A model generated the notes under the pieces. The model was not told the DNA's origin, did not search any database, and saw only the letters and a list, made by a program, of their open reading frames with translations. Positions 52,875-61,449 of a DNA stretch of 64,000 bases are shown one piece after another (position 1 is the stretch's first letter; each line of letters opens with the position of its first letter). This DNA is from an uncultured Pseudomonadota bacterium (GTDB lineage: Bacteria > Pseudomonadota > Gammaproteobacteria > Steroidobacterales > Steroidobacteraceae). Location of the stretch: the NCBI GenBank assembly GCA_903838705.1, contig CAILZL010000011.1:62001-126000 (forward strand), read 5' to 3'. Made by a program: the position numbers and the translations under genes.

Positions 52875-54059
52875 TTACTTCAAATACTTCTTCCCTACGC
52901 GCAAATAGGCTTCCCGAAATGGAATGCCTTCATTCTTCACCAGCTCATAGGCTTCCGCAGCGGCATTGATCGATGCATCCATTGAGATGTTTTCTTTTCT
53001 GAATTTCACTTCAGCTAAAGCGGGCGCAAGGATGTCGAGGGTATCGCTGCACAGATCTATCGCGCGGAACAACGGTACCTTTATCAGCTGCAAGTCTCGC
53101 TGATAGCCCGAAGGCAGTTTGGCCACAATGCCCAGCACTTCGAACAATGCGGCTTGCGCAGCGGCAGAGCGACCACGGATCAGTTCAAATACATCCGGGT
53201 TGCGCTTCTGGGGCATGATGGACGAGCCGGTGGTGAATGCATCAGGTAGCGAGACGAACGCAAACTCCTGTGTGTAGAACAGACACAGGTCTGAAGACAG
53301 CCGCGCCACATCCTGCATCACCATGACGATTTCAAACAACAGCTGCGCTTCGGCCTTGCCGCGTGACAGCTGAACTGCCGTGACCGGTTCATGGACTTCG
53401 TTGAAGCCGAGTGCCTTGGCCGTTGCGGCACGATCCAGAGGAAGATTCGGTGTACCGTAGCCAGCTGCTGAACCCAGTGGGCTTTTGCCGGTACGACGCT
53501 GTACCTGCATCAGGCCTGCGGCGTCATCACGCAATTCAGCGGCAAAACCACCGGCCCAGAGCTTCACGGAACTGGGCATGGCCTGTTGCATGTGGGTGTA
53601 GCCCGGCAATGCTGTATCGGTTTCGCGTTCACCCAGCGCATCTAATGCCTCTGCAACTTTCAGAACGGCCTTGTTCAGGTCGGTAGTGGCATCACGCAAA
53701 AACAGACGTAATGCAGTCAGTACCTGATCATTGCGGGAACGTCCCAGATGCACACGTGCACCAGCCTGCCCGATGCGCTGTGTTAATAAAGTTTCCAGGG
53801 CAGTCTGGCCGTCTTCATGTTCCAGCGTGACCTGCCATTTGCCCTGCGCATGTTCATCACCAATCGCGGTGAGGCCATCGCGTATCAGTTTGAAATCTTC
53901 AGCAGACAGCAAACCCTGAGCATTCAGCATCTGCGCATGTGCAATTGAAGCGCGCACATCATGAGCCACCAGTCGATTATCCAGTGCATGATCGTCACCG
54001 GCGGTGTATTGCAGCACACGCGAATCAAGTGGCGCGCCTTTATCCCAGAGTCTCGACAT
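52875..54059 (-). CDS. argH: Argininosuccinate lyase (short, Bacteroidetes-like form)
   Basis: HLGRSRNDQVLTALRL; TTGSSIMPQKRNPDVFELIRG; 394 aa, C-terminus ends at GIPFREAYLRVGKKYLK. Confidence 0.95.
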   Translation of the reverse strand: MSRLWDKGAPLDSRVLQYTAGDDHALDNRLVAHDVRASIAHAQMLNAQGLLSAEDFKLIRDGLTAIGDEHAQGKWQVTLEHEDGQTALETLLTQRIGQAGARVHLGRSRNDQVLTALRLFLRDATTDLNKAVLKVAEALDALGERETDTALPGYTHMQQAMPSSVKLWAGGFAAELRDDAAGLMQVQRRTGKSPLGSAAGYGTPNLPLDRAATAKALGFNEVHEPVTAVQLSRGKAEAQLLFEIVMVMQDVARLSSDLCLFYTQEFAFVSLPDAFTTGSSIMPQKRNPDVFELIRGRSAAAQAALFEVLGIVAKLPSGYQRDLQLIKVPLFRAIDLCSDTLDILAPALAEVKFRKENISMDASINAAAEAYELVKNEGIPFREAYLRVGKKYLK

Positions 54060-54092: not shown

Positions 54093-55022
54093 TTAATTAC
54101 CCTGTTCGGCTGCACTCAAGCCCTTGATGTCTTCCACAATCAGGGTGCCGGTGCCTTCGTTGGTAAATACTTCGATCAGCACACTGTCCGGTGTCTTGTA
54201 TGAAATGCAATGTACGCGACGCACGCCGCCTTTGATTGCGCTTTCAATCGCAGTGGCTTTGGGCAGCATGCCATCTTTCAGGCTGCCCTGATCTTTGAGG
54301 CGCTTCAGGCCTGCCAGATCGGTATAGGACACCAGTGAGTGCGGATCTTCCAGCGATTCCATGATGCCGGGTGCACCCGTTACCAGCATGAGCTTTTCTG
54401 CTTTCAGAGCCGAGCCCAGTGCAGCCGCAACCGTATCGGCATTGATGTTGAGCAGCACGCCCTTGTCATCACACGAAACCGGGCTGACCACCGGCATCAG
54501 GCCGTCATCGAGCAATTGTTGCAGCACCTTCGCATCAACCAGATCGATGTCGCCGACAAATCCGTAGTCAATCGTTTCACCGTTGACCAGAACAGGCGGG
54601 CGTTTGTGCGCCTTGATCAAGCCTGCGGCTACACCGCTGACGCCAACTGCATTGATGGAAAGTTCGCGGCAGATGCCAAGAATCTGGGTGTTGACCAGTC
54701 CATTGAGCACCATGCTGGTGACTTCAATGGATTTGGCGTCGGTGACACGCCGGCCTGCGACCATGCGCGGTTCAATACCCATGGATTGCTGTACGCCGGT
54801 CAGCTGCTCACCACCACCGTGCACAATCACGACGCGAATGCCCACCTGGTGCAGGATGGCAACCTGTTCCATCAGAGCGCGGGTGGCATCCGGGTTACCG
54901 AATACACCGCCACTGGCTTTGATGACAAATACCTTGCCTTTGTAGATGCGTATGTACGGCGCAGCGCTCTTCAAGGCGCGGACGGTGATCAGGGGGTCGG
55001 TGCGATTGGTCATGTCTGTCAC
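54093..55022 (-). CDS. argB: Acetylglutamate kinase-like (N-acylglutamate kinase)
   Basis: VVIVHGGGEQLT...GRRVTDAKSIEV; NINADTVAAALGSALKAEKLMLVTGAPGIM; no GNAT domain appended. Confidence 0.92.
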   Translation of the reverse strand: MTDMTNRTDPLITVRALKSAAPYIRIYKGKVFVIKASGGVFGNPDATRALMEQVAILHQVGIRVVIVHGGGEQLTGVQQSMGIEPRMVAGRRVTDAKSIEVTSMVLNGLVNTQILGICRELSINAVGVSGVAAGLIKAHKRPPVLVNGETIDYGFVGDIDLVDAKVLQQLLDDGLMPVVSPVSCDDKGVLLNINADTVAAALGSALKAEKLMLVTGAPGIMESLEDPHSLVSYTDLAGLKRLKDQGSLKDGMLPKATAIESAIKGGVRRVHCISYKTPDSVLIEVFTNEGTGTLIVEDIKGLSAAEQGN

Positions 55023-55086: not shown

Positions 55087-56088
55087 TTACTTGTTCCGCA
55101 ACAGGCGATGCAATACGGCCATCTGCACCACCATGCGGTTGAATGCTTCACGGATGACCACGCTGCGCGAGCTATCCAGCACTTCGTCATCGACGGCAAC
55201 GTTGCGGCGGACCGGCAGGCAGTGCATCAGATGACAATCCGGTGCAGTGTGTTTGAACCAGCTGTCTTTGACGCACCAGTCGACCAGATCTTCTCTCAGG
55301 CGTGTTTCGGCTTCGGCATCGCCATAGTGCTGTGGTGAACCCCATTCCTTGGCATAAACCACCTGCGCACCTTTCAGCGCTGCAGGACGATCAGTTGTTT
55401 CAGTCACATTGCCACCGGATGCTCTGGCCGCTACGCGAGCTTTTTCCATGATGGCATCTGGCAGTGCATAGCCTTCCGGACGTAACACCACTACATCCAT
55501 GCCGCGCATCGCGGCCATCTGTACGGTTGCAGAAGGCACGGCCAGTGGCAATGCTCGGGGATGATTGACCCACGATATGACGAACTTGCCACGTTCAGGC
55601 ACATTCAGTTCGTCCATGGTGTACCAGTCAGCCAGAGCCTGGCATGGATGATTAACAGCTGATTCAAGATTGATGAGCGGCTTGTCGCACAGATCGGCAA
55701 TCATCTTGAAGCCGGTTTCATTAATGTCGGCCTGCAGATTCTTGCCTTCTGCAAACATGCGCACACCCAGTGCATCGCAGTAGGATGCCATGACCGGCAC
55801 GGCTTCTTTGATGTGTTCAGCAGCTGCGCCATTCATTACTGCACCATTGCGCGTTTCCAGCTGCCAGGTGCCCTGACCGGGTGTAATGACAAAAACTGAG
55901 CCGCCCAGTCGCATCATGCCGCTCTGGAATGAAGCCAGCGTGCGCAGGGATGGATTCATGAACAGCAACCCCAGCACCTTGCCTGCCAGTGCATGGGGAT
56001 CAGGGTTCTGCTGCAAGCGTGACGCCAGACCCAGCAGGTCTTTCACTTCAGCGCGTTCAAAATCAGCCAGGTCCAGAAATCGTTGCAT
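55087..56088 (-). CDS. argF': N-acetyl/N-succinylornithine carbamoyltransferase-like (ArgF')
   Basis: MNPSLRTLASFQSG; GAVMNGAAAEHIKEAVPVMASYCDALGVR; NHPCQALADW; HCLPVRRN rather than the OTC-type HCLPA. ORF opens at 56130. Confidence 0.9.
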   Translation of the reverse strand: MQRFLDLADFERAEVKDLLGLASRLQQNPDPHALAGKVLGLLFMNPSLRTLASFQSGMMRLGGSVFVITPGQGTWQLETRNGAVMNGAAAEHIKEAVPVMASYCDALGVRMFAEGKNLQADINETGFKMIADLCDKPLINLESAVNHPCQALADWYTMDELNVPERGKFVISWVNHPRALPLAVPSATVQMAAMRGMDVVVLRPEGYALPDAIMEKARVAARASGGNVTETTDRPAALKGAQVVYAKEWGSPQHYGDAEAETRLREDLVDWCVKDSWFKHTAPDCHLMHCLPVRRNVAVDDEVLDSSRSVVIREAFNRMVVQMAVLHRLLRNK

Positions 56089-56105
56089 GATGTCTCGTTG
56101 TCTTC

Positions 56106-56175
56106 GTAGGCCGGATGCTGCACCCGGCAATGATCTGTTGATGTTGCTGGATGCCGGGTGTGGTGCCCGGCCTGC
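56106..56175. repeat. REP/BIME-like element: two 24-nt palindromic units in inverted orientation
   Basis: GTAGGCCGGATGCTGCACCCGGCA (56106-56129) and TGCCGGGTGTGGTGCCCGGCCTGC (56152-56175; reverse complement GCAGGCCGGGCACCACACCCGGCA). Confidence 0.75.
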
Positions 56176-56178
56176 ACA

Positions 56179-57360
56179 TCACTTGCCAATATCAATCAAC
56201 GCTGCGCGCAATGCTTCCACATGCTCTGACTTGAGCACATAGGGCGCAAGAATGCGCACAACATTCGGGTCACCGCTGGTGCCGGTAAGAATGTCCTGCT
56301 TCAACAGCTCAGCCTGAATTTCTTTCGCGGGCCGTGTGGTGCGCAGACCCAGCAGCATGCCTGCTCCCTGAATTGCGGTCACCGGACCTGCGATACATTT
56401 CTCACGGATCTCGGCAGACCGCGCAAGCACATTACTGAGCAGTCCTTCATCTTCGATGATGTCGAGCACGACTTCGACCATGGCACAGGCCATCGGGCCA
56501 CCGCCGAAGGTGGTGCCAAGATCATCCATCTTCAGATAACTGGCCACGTGATCGGCCATCAGTACCGCTGACACAGGAAAGCCTGCGCCCAACGCCTTCG
56601 CAGTCGTGATGATGTCGGGTGTGACACCATACATGTTTGCTGCAAAGGGATGGCCGGTACGACCCATGCCACATTGCACTTCATCAAATATGAGCAGCGT
56701 GCCGGTTTCAGAGCAGCGCTGACGGATGGCTTCCAGGAATGCCTTGGGCAGATCGCAGGCACCTGCTACGCCCTGAATGGGTTCCACTATCACAGCGGCT
56801 GTTTTGTCAGTGATGGTTTCCTTGATCGCAGGAATATTGCCGCGCGGCAGGAACTGCACATCAAACGGAGCCTGAGGGAAGCCATACCATTTCTTCATTG
56901 CACCCCAGGTAACCGCACCCGCCGCAGCGGTACGTCCATGAAAGCTACCTTCTATGGCCACAACTTCACGCGCTTCGGTGATCTTCAATGCCAGCTTCAG
57001 CGCGTTTTCATTGGCTTCGGCACCGGAATTGACGAAGAACACCGTGTTCAATCCCAGACCACAGAATTTTGCCAGCTTCGTGGCCGCACGTACCCGCACG
57101 TCCAGCGGTACCGCGTTACTCTGGAAAGCCAGCGCCTGTGCCTGTCTGGTCAAAGCTTCAACCCAGCGTGGATGGCCATAACCCACGGCAGCAACAGCAT
57201 GACCACCGTAAAGATCCAGCACCTTGCGGCCATCCGGGGTATGCAGATACACGCCCATCGCATCGACCACTTCCAGCGGAAACTGTGCATACACATGCGC
57301 CAGATGATCAGACTCATCTGCTTTGGCGGGGTGCAATGGCACTACATTTTGCGTACTCAT
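56179..57360 (-). CDS. argD: Acetyl-/succinylornithine aminotransferase (class III)
   Basis: DLYGGHAVAAVGYGHP; FVNSGAEANENALKLALK; FDEVQCGMGRTG; TTAKALGAGFPVSAVLM. Confidence 0.94.
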   Translation of the reverse strand: MSTQNVVPLHPAKADESDHLAHVYAQFPLEVVDAMGVYLHTPDGRKVLDLYGGHAVAAVGYGHPRWVEALTRQAQALAFQSNAVPLDVRVRAATKLAKFCGLGLNTVFFVNSGAEANENALKLALKITEAREVVAIEGSFHGRTAAAGAVTWGAMKKWYGFPQAPFDVQFLPRGNIPAIKETITDKTAAVIVEPIQGVAGACDLPKAFLEAIRQRCSETGTLLIFDEVQCGMGRTGHPFAANMYGVTPDIITTAKALGAGFPVSAVLMADHVASYLKMDDLGTTFGGGPMACAMVEVVLDIIEDEGLLSNVLARSAEIREKCIAGPVTAIQGAGMLLGLRTTRPAKEIQAELLKQDILTGTSGDPNVVRILAPYVLKSEHVEALRAALIDIGK

Positions 57361-57379: not shown

Positions 57380-58441
57380 TCAATTCCAGCCGGGTGCAGG
57401 CGTCAGCAAGCCAAGTGCTTCATCAAAACCCAGCAGGCGATTCATCCATTGCACCGCACCGCCGGCTGCGCCTTTGGTCAGGTTATCAATGGCGCACATC
57501 ACGGCTACTGTTTTGCCATCCGCAACGGCACTGATGTGCGCGTAGTTACTGGTGGCCACATCCTTGATGCGTGGCATTTCATTGCCGACGCGCACGAATG
57601 GGGAATGTTTGTAGAAATCCCGCAAGGCTTGAACGAGTTCTGCCGTGCTGATGGGTTTCAATGCAGTGGCTTGAATCGTGGCATGAATGCCGCGGGCAAA
57701 CGGACCTGAATGCGGTACGAAACAGAAGTCAGCCTGAATGCCGGATGCGGCATGGGCCAGTTCAGTTACTTCGGGTGCATGACGGTGTGCCAGAGGATTG
57801 TAGGCATACAGGTCACTATGACGTTGCGGATGATGGGTTCCCGCTGTCGGTGTGCGGCCTGCGCCGGTGCTGCCGGTAATGGCGGATGCAAACAGGCGAG
57901 GCTCAGCGATGCCCAGCTTCAGCAACGGCACACTGGACAACAGAATAGAAGTTGCAAAGCAGCCCGGATGCGCCACGTGCCGGGTAGGTGCTTTGGCCAG
58001 ATGTTCAGGCACAGCACAGGTGAAGTCTTTGATGCGGGCAGGCGCGCCATGCGCATGCTTGTAGACGGCTTCATATGCTGAGGCAGTGCTGTAACGATAG
58101 TCAGCAGAGATGTCGACTACGGTGCAATCGGTGCCCGCCGCTTCGGAGGCCTTGATTAACCCATCCAGCAACTTGTGCGATACACCATGCGGTGCAGCAG
58201 CCAGCACAGCAGATTTCGGCAGCGTGGCAATCAGCTGCGTCACCTGTTCCAGGCTGGAATACTGTAGCTGCGGGTAGGCAGGAGCCAGATGTGGAAAGGC
58301 TTTGCTGACAGGTTCACCCGGCTGACTGTCAGACAGAATCGCCTTCAATTCGAGACCCGGATGACCTGCGATCAACCTGAGCAGTTCACCTGCAACATAG
58401 CCGGTACCGCCCAATACGATGGTGGGAACTCTGTTGGTCAT
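57380..58441 (-). CDS. argC: N-acetyl-gamma-glutamyl-phosphate reductase-like
   Basis: VLGGTGYVAGELLRLIAGHPGLELKAILS; HPGCFATSILLSSVPL; TGSTGAGRTPTAGTHHPQRHSDLYAYNPLAHRH. Confidence 0.93.
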   Translation of the reverse strand: MTNRVPTIVLGGTGYVAGELLRLIAGHPGLELKAILSDSQPGEPVSKAFPHLAPAYPQLQYSSLEQVTQLIATLPKSAVLAAAPHGVSHKLLDGLIKASEAAGTDCTVVDISADYRYSTASAYEAVYKHAHGAPARIKDFTCAVPEHLAKAPTRHVAHPGCFATSILLSSVPLLKLGIAEPRLFASAITGSTGAGRTPTAGTHHPQRHSDLYAYNPLAHRHAPEVTELAHAASGIQADFCFVPHSGPFARGIHATIQATALKPISTAELVQALRDFYKHSPFVRVGNEMPRIKDVATSNYAHISAVADGKTVAVMCAIDNLTKGAAGGAVQWMNRLLGFDEALGLLTPAPGWN

Positions 58442-59529
58442 TACAGCTGCTCCACATTGGCCTTGGCCAGCACTTCCGGCGACAGCTTCAAACTATCAAT
58501 CACACAATCGCCCAATGCAGCGCCATCGGTCATGGCGTTCCATGCTGGCACTTTCATCTGATCGCGAATGATGTTCACACCGACGGCATTGTCCGTTGAT
58601 GGGCCGGTGACGACAGAAGGCTCGATTCCGAACTTCTCGCGCAGCAGTTTCACACCACCCCATGCAGCGACAGGATCGTTGGCTGACAACACTACCGATG
58701 TCAGGGAATCGCGAATCTCTTTATCAAGCAGAATCGCTTCCACGCCGTAAGCGCCCAGCAGGCCATCGCCCAGCTCAAACACGATGACATCAGGATCGCC
58801 CAGTGCCATCTCAGTCAGCAGTGTGCGTGTGATGGCAGGACCGGTCTTGGCAGTAGTGGTGACGACGCCATAGTCAGTGAAGATGGCGCTCTTCTTCGCG
58901 CCAGCATCTTCCATGGCCATGATGTCGCGCCGCAGTGAAACACCCGTCGCCTTGAACGCATGCACGTTCAGGCCACGATGCCGCATGCGCGAGACAATGG
59001 CGCAGGCAGCGGCCGTCTTGCCGGCTTCCATGCAGGTGCCTGCCAATGCGACAACCGGTACTTTGCGAGTGTCGACTTTGGCGTTGTAGTCGAGTTGCTT
59101 GTAACCCACTTTTGCAGGTACACCAATCCGTTCACCCAGATATGGGAACTGGAGCACCACGCCCAGAACGCGGCAATCAAACGGTTTGCCTTTGTCAGGA
59201 TTGGCTGAATCGCAGATGCCCAGTACGCCACCGATGTTGAGCATCTGGATGATGTCACCTTCTTTCACGGACTCAGGCAGATGACCTGAATAGCCAAACA
59301 GCGCCTGACGATGACCCAGTGCGCCCACCACGATATCGCCACGCGCCACCTTGGCCATGCGACCACTGGTCAGCTCCAGCGTGTTGTAGGTGGATTTATT
59401 GGTGAGAATCTCTACCACCAGCACCACACCTTCTTCGCAGGGAAGGTTCTGCGTTTCTATGCGCAGCTCGCGACCCAGATTCAGTGCCTGAGTGATGGAG
59501 CCGATCTTGTCTACAACAACTGTTTTCAT
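58441..59529 (-). CDS. Uncharacterised P-loop NTPase-like protein embedded in the arginine operon (distantly DUF1611/BioD/MobB-like)
   Basis: Walker A-like VVALAGTCMEAGKTAAACAIVSRMRHRGLNVHAFKATG; DPDVIVFELGDGLLGAYGVEAIL; distinct ~140-aa N-terminal region. Confidence 0.75.
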   Translation of the reverse strand: MKTVVVDKIGSITQALNLGRELRIETQNLPCEEGVVLVVEILTNKSTYNTLELTSGRMAKVARGDIVVGALGHRQALFGYSGHLPESVKEGDIIQMLNIGGVLGICDSANPDKGKPFDCRVLGVVLQFPYLGERIGVPAKVGYKQLDYNAKVDTRKVPVVALAGTCMEAGKTAAACAIVSRMRHRGLNVHAFKATGVSLRRDIMAMEDAGAKKSAIFTDYGVVTTTAKTGPAITRTLLTEMALGDPDVIVFELGDGLLGAYGVEAILLDKEIRDSLTSVVLSANDPVAAWGGVKLLREKFGIEPSVVTGPSTDNAVGVNIIRDQMKVPAWNAMTDGAALGDCVIDSLKLSPEVLAKANVEQL

Positions 59530-59554: not shown

Positions 59555-59578
59555 CCCTCTCCCGATTGCGGGAGAGGG
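59555..59578. repeat. Perfect 10-bp hairpin CCCTCTCCCG-ATTG-CGGGAGAGGG between argG and the P-loop gene
   Basis: CCCTCTCCCGATTGCGGGAGAGGG read directly; resembles a palindromic intergenic repeat seen widely in proteobacteria. Confidence 0.7.
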
Positions 59579-59590
59579 CTAGGGTGTAGA

Positions 59591-60811
59591 TTAATTCTTG
59601 CCTGCCCGTTGCCAGAACGAACCGGTTAACGACAGCATCTTCGAGAATCCCAGCGCATCTGCGGCGGTCCATTCGCCCGCTGCCTCGCCATACACACCTT
59701 TGGAAGCTGCCATGATCGAATATCTGGATGTCACACCTTCAATGAAGGCCATGCCGGGTCGATACATTACTTTGACTTCACCGGTGACACGTTCCTGAGA
59801 GGACAGTAGCAGCGCTTCGATATCGCGGCATACAGGATCAAGATGCTGACCTTCATGTACCAGATCGCCATAAGGTGCGGCTACGCTGTCCTTGATACGT
59901 GACTGACGTCCAGTCAGTACCAGTTTCTCCAGTTCGCGATGAGCATTGAGCAGTACATCAGCAGCAGGAGCTTCAAACGCCACCCGACCTTTGGTGCCGA
60001 TGATGGTGTCACCAACATGAATGCCGCGACCAACGCCGAATTTCGCGCCGATCTGTTCCAGCTTTTCAATCACGCTGACAGCACTGAGGGTGATGCCGTC
60101 CACGCTGCATGGCACACCATGTTCAAAGCCGATGGTATGCACTTCAGGTGCTTGCGGATTGCTGAAAGCATCCTTTGACAGTACCCAGGCGCTGTCAGGA
60201 ATAGTGTCGCTGGAGGTCAGGGTTTCCTTGCCGCCAATGGTCACGCCCCACAGGCCACGATTCACTGAATATGCAGCGCCATAGGGAGGCAACGGCAATT
60301 GCTTGTCCTGCAGGTATTTCAACTGTTCCGGACGCTTGAAGGCGCGATCCCGTACCGGTGCAAGAATGGTAAGTTCAGGTGCGAGCGTGCGCAGCGCGAC
60401 TTCGAAGCGGACCTGATCATTACCCGCAGCAGTACAGCCATGCGCAACGATCTTGGTGCCAAGCTTGCGCGCATATTCGGCAATGATCTGCGCCTGCATC
60501 ACGCGCTCTGCGCCTACGCACAGAGGATAAAGGTTGCCGCGTCGTACATTGCCCATGATCAGATACTTGAGCACCTGATCGAAATAAGTGGGCTTGGCTT
60601 CAACCAGTATCTGCTTCTGTGCGCCATAAGTCAGCGCGCGCTGTTCCAGCACCTTGGCGGCCTCGGCATCAATGCCACCAGTATCCACCGTGACCGTAAT
60701 GACCGGTCGGCCATAGTTTTCTTTCAGCCAAGGCACAAGGAATGAAGTGTCCAGGCCACCGGAGAAGGCAAGCAGTATGGGTTCATTACCCGCGGGAATG
60801 GTGTCAGTCAT
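59591..60811 (-). CDS. argG: Argininosuccinate synthase
   Basis: ILLAFSGGLDTSFLVPWLKENYGRPVITVTVDTGG; AHGCTAAGNDQVRFEVALRTLAPELTILAPVRD. ORF opens at 60922; MTDTIPAGNEP at 60811 is the likely start. Confidence 0.95.
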   Translation of the reverse strand: MTDTIPAGNEPILLAFSGGLDTSFLVPWLKENYGRPVITVTVDTGGIDAEAAKVLEQRALTYGAQKQILVEAKPTYFDQVLKYLIMGNVRRGNLYPLCVGAERVMQAQIIAEYARKLGTKIVAHGCTAAGNDQVRFEVALRTLAPELTILAPVRDRAFKRPEQLKYLQDKQLPLPPYGAAYSVNRGLWGVTIGGKETLTSSDTIPDSAWVLSKDAFSNPQAPEVHTIGFEHGVPCSVDGITLSAVSVIEKLEQIGAKFGVGRGIHVGDTIIGTKGRVAFEAPAADVLLNAHRELEKLVLTGRQSRIKDSVAAPYGDLVHEGQHLDPVCRDIEALLLSSQERVTGEVKVMYRPGMAFIEGVTSRYSIMAASKGVYGEAAGEWTAADALGFSKMLSLTGSFWQRAGKN

Positions 60812-60854
60812 GATGCAAACAATCTCTGAATCTGAAATTTGATGAGTAGAAAAA

Positions 60855-61304
60855 TTAAAGTTTGAAAATGGCGCGCAGACGGGAACCCAGCTGCTGCTGC
60901 GCGCTGGCATCTTCAGTGGCAATGAAAATCGTGTCGTCGCCTGAAATCGTGCCGACTACTTCCGGCCACTTTGCCTGATCAATGGCCACGGCCACACTCT
61001 GGGCTGTACCGGTGCGTGTATTGACCACAGTCAGTGAGCTGCCTGCGGTGCAGATGCGTGTGACAAATCCGCTGATAGCGCTGAATGGATCGGATTGGCT
61101 CACAGCGGATTGCGGAACAATGTAATGATCTCCCGCTTTGGCCACTTGCAGTTCGCGTAAATCCCGGCTGACGCTGGATTGAGTAGCATCGAATCCCTGC
61201 TGTCTGAGCAGGTCAACCAGTTCTGATTGCTTGTGCACCACCGATTCGCGGATGATCTTGACGATCGCCGCGCGGCGTAAGGTGGATTGATGCAGTTCAG
61301 CGGC
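60855..61304 (-). CDS. argR: Arginine repressor
   Basis: HKQSELVDLLRQQGFDATQSSVSRDLRELQVAKAGDHYIVP; GTAQSVAVAIDQAKWPEVVGTISGDDTIFIAT. ORF opens at 61412; MAAELHQST at 61304 is the likely start. Confidence 0.95.
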   Translation of the reverse strand, partial: AAELHQSTLRRAAIVKIIRESVVHKQSELVDLLRQQGFDATQSSVSRDLRELQVAKAGDHYIVPQSAVSQSDPFSAISGFVTRICTAGSSLTVVNTRTGTAQSVAVAIDQAKWPEVVGTISGDDTIFIATEDASAQQQLGSRLRAIFKL

Positions 61305-61364
61305 CATGAATAATTTTGAGGCGGTCAGGGTGTCGGATACGAGAGAGCGGGCGGGTCCATCAAT

Positions 61365-61403
61365 TATGCATAAAACATTTGATATTCTGCATAAATATGC
61401 GGA
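61365..61403. promoter_or_regulatory. Tandem ARG-box-like ArgR operator
   Basis: TATGCATAAAACATTTGA (61365-61382) and TCTGCATAAATATGCGGA (61386-61403). TGCATAAA repeats at exactly 21 bp; the second box matches WNTGNATWWWWATNCANW at all but one position. Confidence 0.65.
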
Positions 61404-61449
61404 AAGGGTCAAGGAAAAACAGCCTGCATCAGGTTGTTCTGGAAAAAAT

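Follow-up and report, generated by a model that had tools for sequence, protein, structure and literature searches.

The locus analysed here raises the question of which enzyme opens arginine synthesis in a bacterium, one of a family living in soil and fresh water, whose genome encodes no recognised N-acetylglutamate synthase. The window, a stretch of 64,000 nucleotides, carries an arginine operon in which a gene of a family without characterised function, here called X, lies between argG and argC. We propose that X probably supplies this first step, most likely as an N-succinylglutamate-forming enzyme. A literature search returned no paper on the X protein.

X is a conserved member of the arginine operon

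In the window, the genes argR-argG-X-argC-argD-argF'-argB-argH follow each other with short gaps on the minus strand. The assembly (2.74 Mb, 43 contigs) is rated 100% complete. The features of the operon are as follows.

60855-61412, minus strand: argR, arginine repressor, first gene of the operon (NCBIfam model)
59591-60922, minus strand: argG, argininosuccinate synthase (NCBIfam model); open reading frame as listed, true start probably further downstream
59555-59578, no strand assigned: perfect 10-bp palindrome CCCTCTCCCG-ATTG-CGGGAGAGGG in the argG-X gap (sequence)
58441-59529, minus strand: X, 362 aa, ATG start, family without characterised function, proposed N-acyl(succinyl)-glutamate-forming enzyme (open reading frame, orthologues, model)
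57380-58441, minus strand: argC, N-acyl-gamma-glutamyl-phosphate reductase (TIGR01850, 284 bits, cut-off 233.6)
56179-57360, minus strand: argD, acetyl/succinylornithine-type aminotransferase (TIGR00707, 328 bits, below the 410 cut-off)
55087-56130, minus strand: argF', acylornithine carbamoyltransferase with Ala at the X. campestris Glu92 site (NCBIfam model and alignment)
54093-55022, minus strand: argB, acylglutamate kinase without a NAT (synthase) domain (NCBIfam model and synthase-model search)
52875-54059, minus strand: argH, argininosuccinate lyase (NCBIfam model)

X is a real gene: dozens of genomes encode it at 65-93% identity. A preliminary description of this DNA had placed it inside the arginine operon, and both the NCBIfam names of argG and argC on its two sides and the gene order in relatives agree. 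The same description had X translationally coupled to argC. In the window the junction, read on the minus strand, is CAGCTGTAATGACC, where the TAA stop of X and the ATG of argC share one base (TAATG). Some relatives have the overlap as well, but in others X and argC lie up to about 150 nt apart, so coupling is not a conserved feature, whereas membership of the operon is.

The gap between argG and X holds a palindrome of 24 nt including its loop, present in a single copy in the window and stable when folded as RNA (-20.8 kcal/mol, z = -3.5); it may be a REP-like element or a regulatory hairpin.

Of 59 related genomes searched, 49 proved to have X or a distant relative; within the window's family X itself is present in all 36 genomes, the window's own included. 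The better genomes, 51 in number, were taken further, and 39 of these have a strong X orthologue. Named relatives with X are mostly Steroidobacteraceae (Steroidobacter, Peristeroidobacter, Povalibacter), with more distant forms in the Woeseiaceae. The order argG-X-argC is kept in nearly every relative's locus with enough contig. Three other families of the same class have X orthologues of 43-45% identity, in operons that read argD-argF'-argB-argH-argG-X-argC where the contig suffices.

Rearranged loci show which neighbours X keeps. At L080 the operon is split, and X remains beside argC and argB. A search of 399 genomes across the phylum gave one strong match beyond the window's own genome; it lies outside the class, in a genome of another class of the phylum (L175:7089-10739), where the order is argR-X-argC-argB and X is 77% identical to that of the window. 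A likely explanation is that the genes for the first steps moved here recently and as one module, by horizontal transfer. Both loci keep X together with the genes for the two steps that follow, argC and argB.

Genomes with X lack the NAT-domain synthase and ArgJ

Known routes to N-acetylglutamate were searched in the 51 genomes (39 X-carrying, 12 X-lacking). ArgJ was found in none of them. Every one of the 39 X genomes has a short, kinase-only ArgB without an acetyltransferase domain, and the N-acetylglutamate synthase model matches this protein only in its kinase half (profile positions up to about 290). In eight X-lacking genomes of the same order ArgB is longer (437-457 aa). The NAT domain (PF04768) was detected at 142 bits in the one that was scanned, and the remaining long ArgBs have the same C-terminal sequence pattern as judged by eye. 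Among the other four X-lacking genomes, three gave no ArgB match and one gave fragments only. G044, G047 and G057, of the same order, have no ArgB-type match although they are 92-96% complete, and are possible arginine auxotrophs.

Where the contig suffices, X-lacking operons read argF'-argG-argE-argB/NAT-argC-argH, the parts being those of the pathway described in Xanthomonas (PMC1865377). Here argE sits between argG and argB; the X operon has neither argE nor the ArgB-NAT fusion, so X stands where those two stand in the other type. The co-occurrence of X with argF' and the absence of argA and argE, put forward beforehand as a check, came out positive, and the match between X and absence of NAT is perfect, although it reflects few independent events because the two operon types form separate deep clades on the tree.

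ArgE is missing too. Four X genomes (the window's, G000, and G001, G003 and G032) encode one M20 hydrolase apiece, and no ArgE-type deacetylase was found in them. The one in the window genome is DapE (552-555 bits, far above the cut-offs), and DapD is present in all four. The window genome also encodes seven GNAT acetyltransferases, none in the operon and their kind judged by eye only, and in some X genomes there are ArgA-like GNATs that are weak matches and unlinked; these leftover proteins leave room for a hidden synthase.

The carbamoyltransferase has a residue type reported for succinyl substrates

The argF' product passes the NCBIfam model for N-acetylornithine carbamoyltransferase (343 bits, cut-off 288). 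According to the Bacteroides study (PMC7311316), a single residue, at position 90 of BT3717, sets the preference of such enzymes, and S, P, A or V favours succinyl. The residue aligned with Glu92 of the X. campestris enzyme (AOTCase) is Ala in the window's argF' and likewise at 52 more X loci of the order, some of which share a genome, Pro in L132 and L133, and Val in L135. Every X operon read thus has a residue of the succinyl type as given there, and all seven X-lacking operons read have Glu. The PDB chain that best matches the window's protein has Ala at this site, and the one that best matches that of L133 has Pro, as read from the alignments. These residue types are consistent across the three deep clades into which they fall on the tree, so that the count stands for few independent events.

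Because argF' has the residue type reported for N-succinylornithine, its standard name, N-acetylornithine carbamoyltransferase (55087-56130, minus strand), is probably wrong. Judged by this residue, the intermediates of the pathway in X operons are probably N-succinylated, and that would also account for a desuccinylase being enough.

X combines a P-loop domain with an unmatched N-terminal domain

In an AlphaFold model of X (mean pLDDT 82.6), roughly residues 1-150 form a beta-rich N-terminal part, next to an alpha/beta P-loop domain. The latter is mostly above pLDDT 80 and the former is weaker. The separate N-terminal region described earlier is therefore borne out, as are the two motifs that had been picked out, both conserved:

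59014-59040, minus strand: Walker A GTCMEAGKT (residues 164-172), with G170-K171-T172 invariant in X, X2 and X3 (alignment)
58762-58779, minus strand: FELGDG strand (residues 251-256), acidic, with E252 invariant in X, X2 and X3 (alignment)

Foldseek, run on the model as had been proposed, placed dethiobiotin synthetase first (E = 3.2e-6), followed closely by SRP GTPases (FtsY/Ffh), HypB and a DUF1611 protein. For the isolated N-terminal domain, modelled with low confidence (pLDDT 72), the fold search returned no match at E < 0.001. Sequence searches of the PDB brought no significant match either, whether the query was X alone or one of the two profiles.

By sequence, X groups with two uncharacterised families, X2 and X3 (hhalign E about 1e-42). 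The three form one P-loop family, whose predicted fold is most like dethiobiotin synthetase. In their joint alignment G170, K171, T172, K193, D202, D208, D219, E252 and D285 are invariant, and K45, Y48, N49, Y80, N98, D313 and N314 are particular to X. We take E252 to occupy the place of the acidic residue of BioD and CobB. A complete GKT Walker A with its acidic partners suggests that X binds nucleotide.

The sister families have neighbourhoods of their own. X2 (L064, L065, L066, L069, L137, L139, L176) always has an M20 hydrolase as neighbour and in most cases a flavin-reductase-like gene too, as read from the sequence; X2 and the hydrolase may be an acylation/deacylation pair. X3 (L138, L140, L142, L147, L148) often adjoins a fused ABC transporter, about 570 aa long, and often a porin-like gene, and these neighbours gave no pointer to arginine.

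A proposed role for X, and its alternatives

The reading that we favour, and hold to be reasonably probable, is that X forms an N-acyl-glutamate, most likely N-succinyl-glutamate, and so opens arginine synthesis. It would join the acyl group to the alpha-amine of L-glutamate, replacing the absent N-acetylglutamate synthase. ArgB, ArgC, ArgD and the carbamoyltransferase would then act on N-succinyl intermediates, and a desuccinylase, probably the DapE common to lysine synthesis, would free citrulline for ArgG and ArgH; that DapE may take N-succinylcitrulline in this way is an assumption of the scheme. What the P-loop domain binds is probably a nucleotide, or else CoA through its nucleotide part, and a putative substrate site would be shaped by the seven residues particular to X. 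The operon, the co-occurrence, the absent genes and the specificity residue are observed, and from them the reaction, the acyl group and its donor, the cofactor and the part of DapE are inferred. Also counted for this role are the fold match to dethiobiotin synthetase and the invariance of Walker A, K193, D202 and E252. Among the functions guessed at in the preliminary description, a missing pathway function in acyl supply fits best, because X genomes have neither a NAT-domain synthase nor ArgJ and because X travels with argC and argB. Amidoligase-like chemistry, also suggested there, is compatible with the conserved nucleotide-binding features. By analogy with the fold match, X might more specifically be a ligase that uses ATP to couple free succinate to glutamate by way of an acyl phosphate, giving arginine synthesis without CoA; we offer this version tentatively and think it rather unlikely.

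The nearest alternatives keep X in acyl chemistry. X could be a transacylase, a counterpart of ArgJ working one step later: it would take the acyl group off N-acylcitrulline and hand it back to glutamate, thereby replacing both synthase and ArgE. That X stands in place of argE and the ArgB-NAT fusion, both absent from its operons, fits such a cycle, as do the four genomes with one M20 hydrolase, which is DapE in the one identified. Yet the cycle needs no nucleotide, while Walker A and its acidic partners are invariant; the first acyl group would still need a source, and the rearranged loci keep X with argC-argB and not with argF'-argG. We judge it improbable. To the version in which X makes N-acetylglutamate, as a new synthase in an ordinary acetyl pathway, we give similarly little weight: to our knowledge, all proteobacterial pathways of this type use acetyl groups, and the carbamoyltransferase does pass the N-acetylornithine model, but every X operon read has Ala, Pro or Val at the specificity site, the best PDB matches share that Ala (window) or Pro (L133), and the four genomes combine DapE with no detected ArgE-type deacetylase.

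Two further readings take X away from the first step, and both seem very unlikely to us. ArgE is absent as well and X adjoins argG, the gene after deacylation, so that X might instead be the N-acylcitrulline deacylase, with an unlinked enzyme acylating glutamate; hydrolysis needs no P-loop, however, X keeps to argC-argB in L080 and L175, and our searches for ArgB/NAT, ArgJ and GNATs brought up no consistent alternative synthase. The P-loop domain also resembles HypB and the FtsY/Ffh GTPases, as might be expected of a nucleotide-dependent regulator or an assembly factor for arginine enzymes. A purely regulatory role, the remaining earlier suggestion, finds little favour: ArgR already has its gene in the operon, and X occurs where the synthase is absent, so that the pathway would still lack its first enzyme.

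Implications

If X acts as we propose, a whole group of Gammaproteobacteria has evolved, from an unrelated fold, a second solution to the first committed step of a central biosynthesis, and shares with the Bacteroidetes a succinylated route to arginine. Automatic annotation would then wrongly call X genomes arginine auxotrophs, or argF' an N-acetylornithine enzyme. The proposal would also give a lead to the function of the sister families X2 and X3 and, should the ATP-ligase version be true, X would be the first member with a function in the large P-loop family that the three make up.

Comparison with known families and systems

Functionally, X would be a new enzyme, unrelated to those known for its step, and by family it belongs to none of the known ones tested. 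The N-acetylglutamate synthases (ArgA, the NAT type of NAGS-K, and ArgJ) share with it the proposed acylation of glutamate and the place in the pathway, and NAT-fused ArgB and X have complementary occurrence across genomes. X differs from them in being a P-loop protein with an unmatched N-terminal domain. Domain scans detected in it no GNAT domain of the ArgA kind, no NAT (PF04768) and no ArgJ (PF01960) domain, which rules out membership of these families.

The preliminary description had likened X to DUF1611 and MobB, and the likeness stands at the level of the P-loop only. DgcN, which we take to be a DUF1611 protein, is like X a P-loop protein of similar length, with GT-x5-GK and K/R-x-TG patterns over about 47 residues. 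It acylates glutamate in the D form (D-glutamate N-acetyltransferase, EC 2.3.1.312; enzyme, PMC11747546; gene, PMC12363236). Against the DUF1611 model (PF07755), X scores 20.6 bits and divergent X proteins 13-17, below the Pfam cut-off of 25. The profile-profile match (hhalign, 47 columns, E = 0.003, probability 11%) is confined to the P-loop region and falls short of full-length similarity, and we dropped X as a DUF1611/DgcN member. The DUF1611 proteins shown have GKM where X has GKT, and nothing matches outside the P-loop region.

X has the P-loop fold with the GT-x5-GKT Walker A of the BioD/MobB/CobB group, and BioD, with the same motif, is the best fold match of its P-loop domain. Dethiobiotin synthetase uses ATP to activate a carboxylate that is then closed onto an amine. 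X has an extra N-terminal domain of about 150 aa compared with these proteins, and its sequence lies apart from theirs (E = 0.57 to BioD; 14.9 bits to MobB against a cut-off of 26.6, which rules out MobB membership).

The closest parallel to the operon as a whole is the succinylated pathway of Bacteroides (PMC7311316), which likewise has a kinase-only ArgB, an N-succinylornithine-type carbamoyltransferase and a DapE-related desuccinylase. Its first step is assigned there to BT3761, related to the synthase Cabys_1732; X operons have no such gene linked to them, and it is X that we propose, with reasonable probability, for this step.
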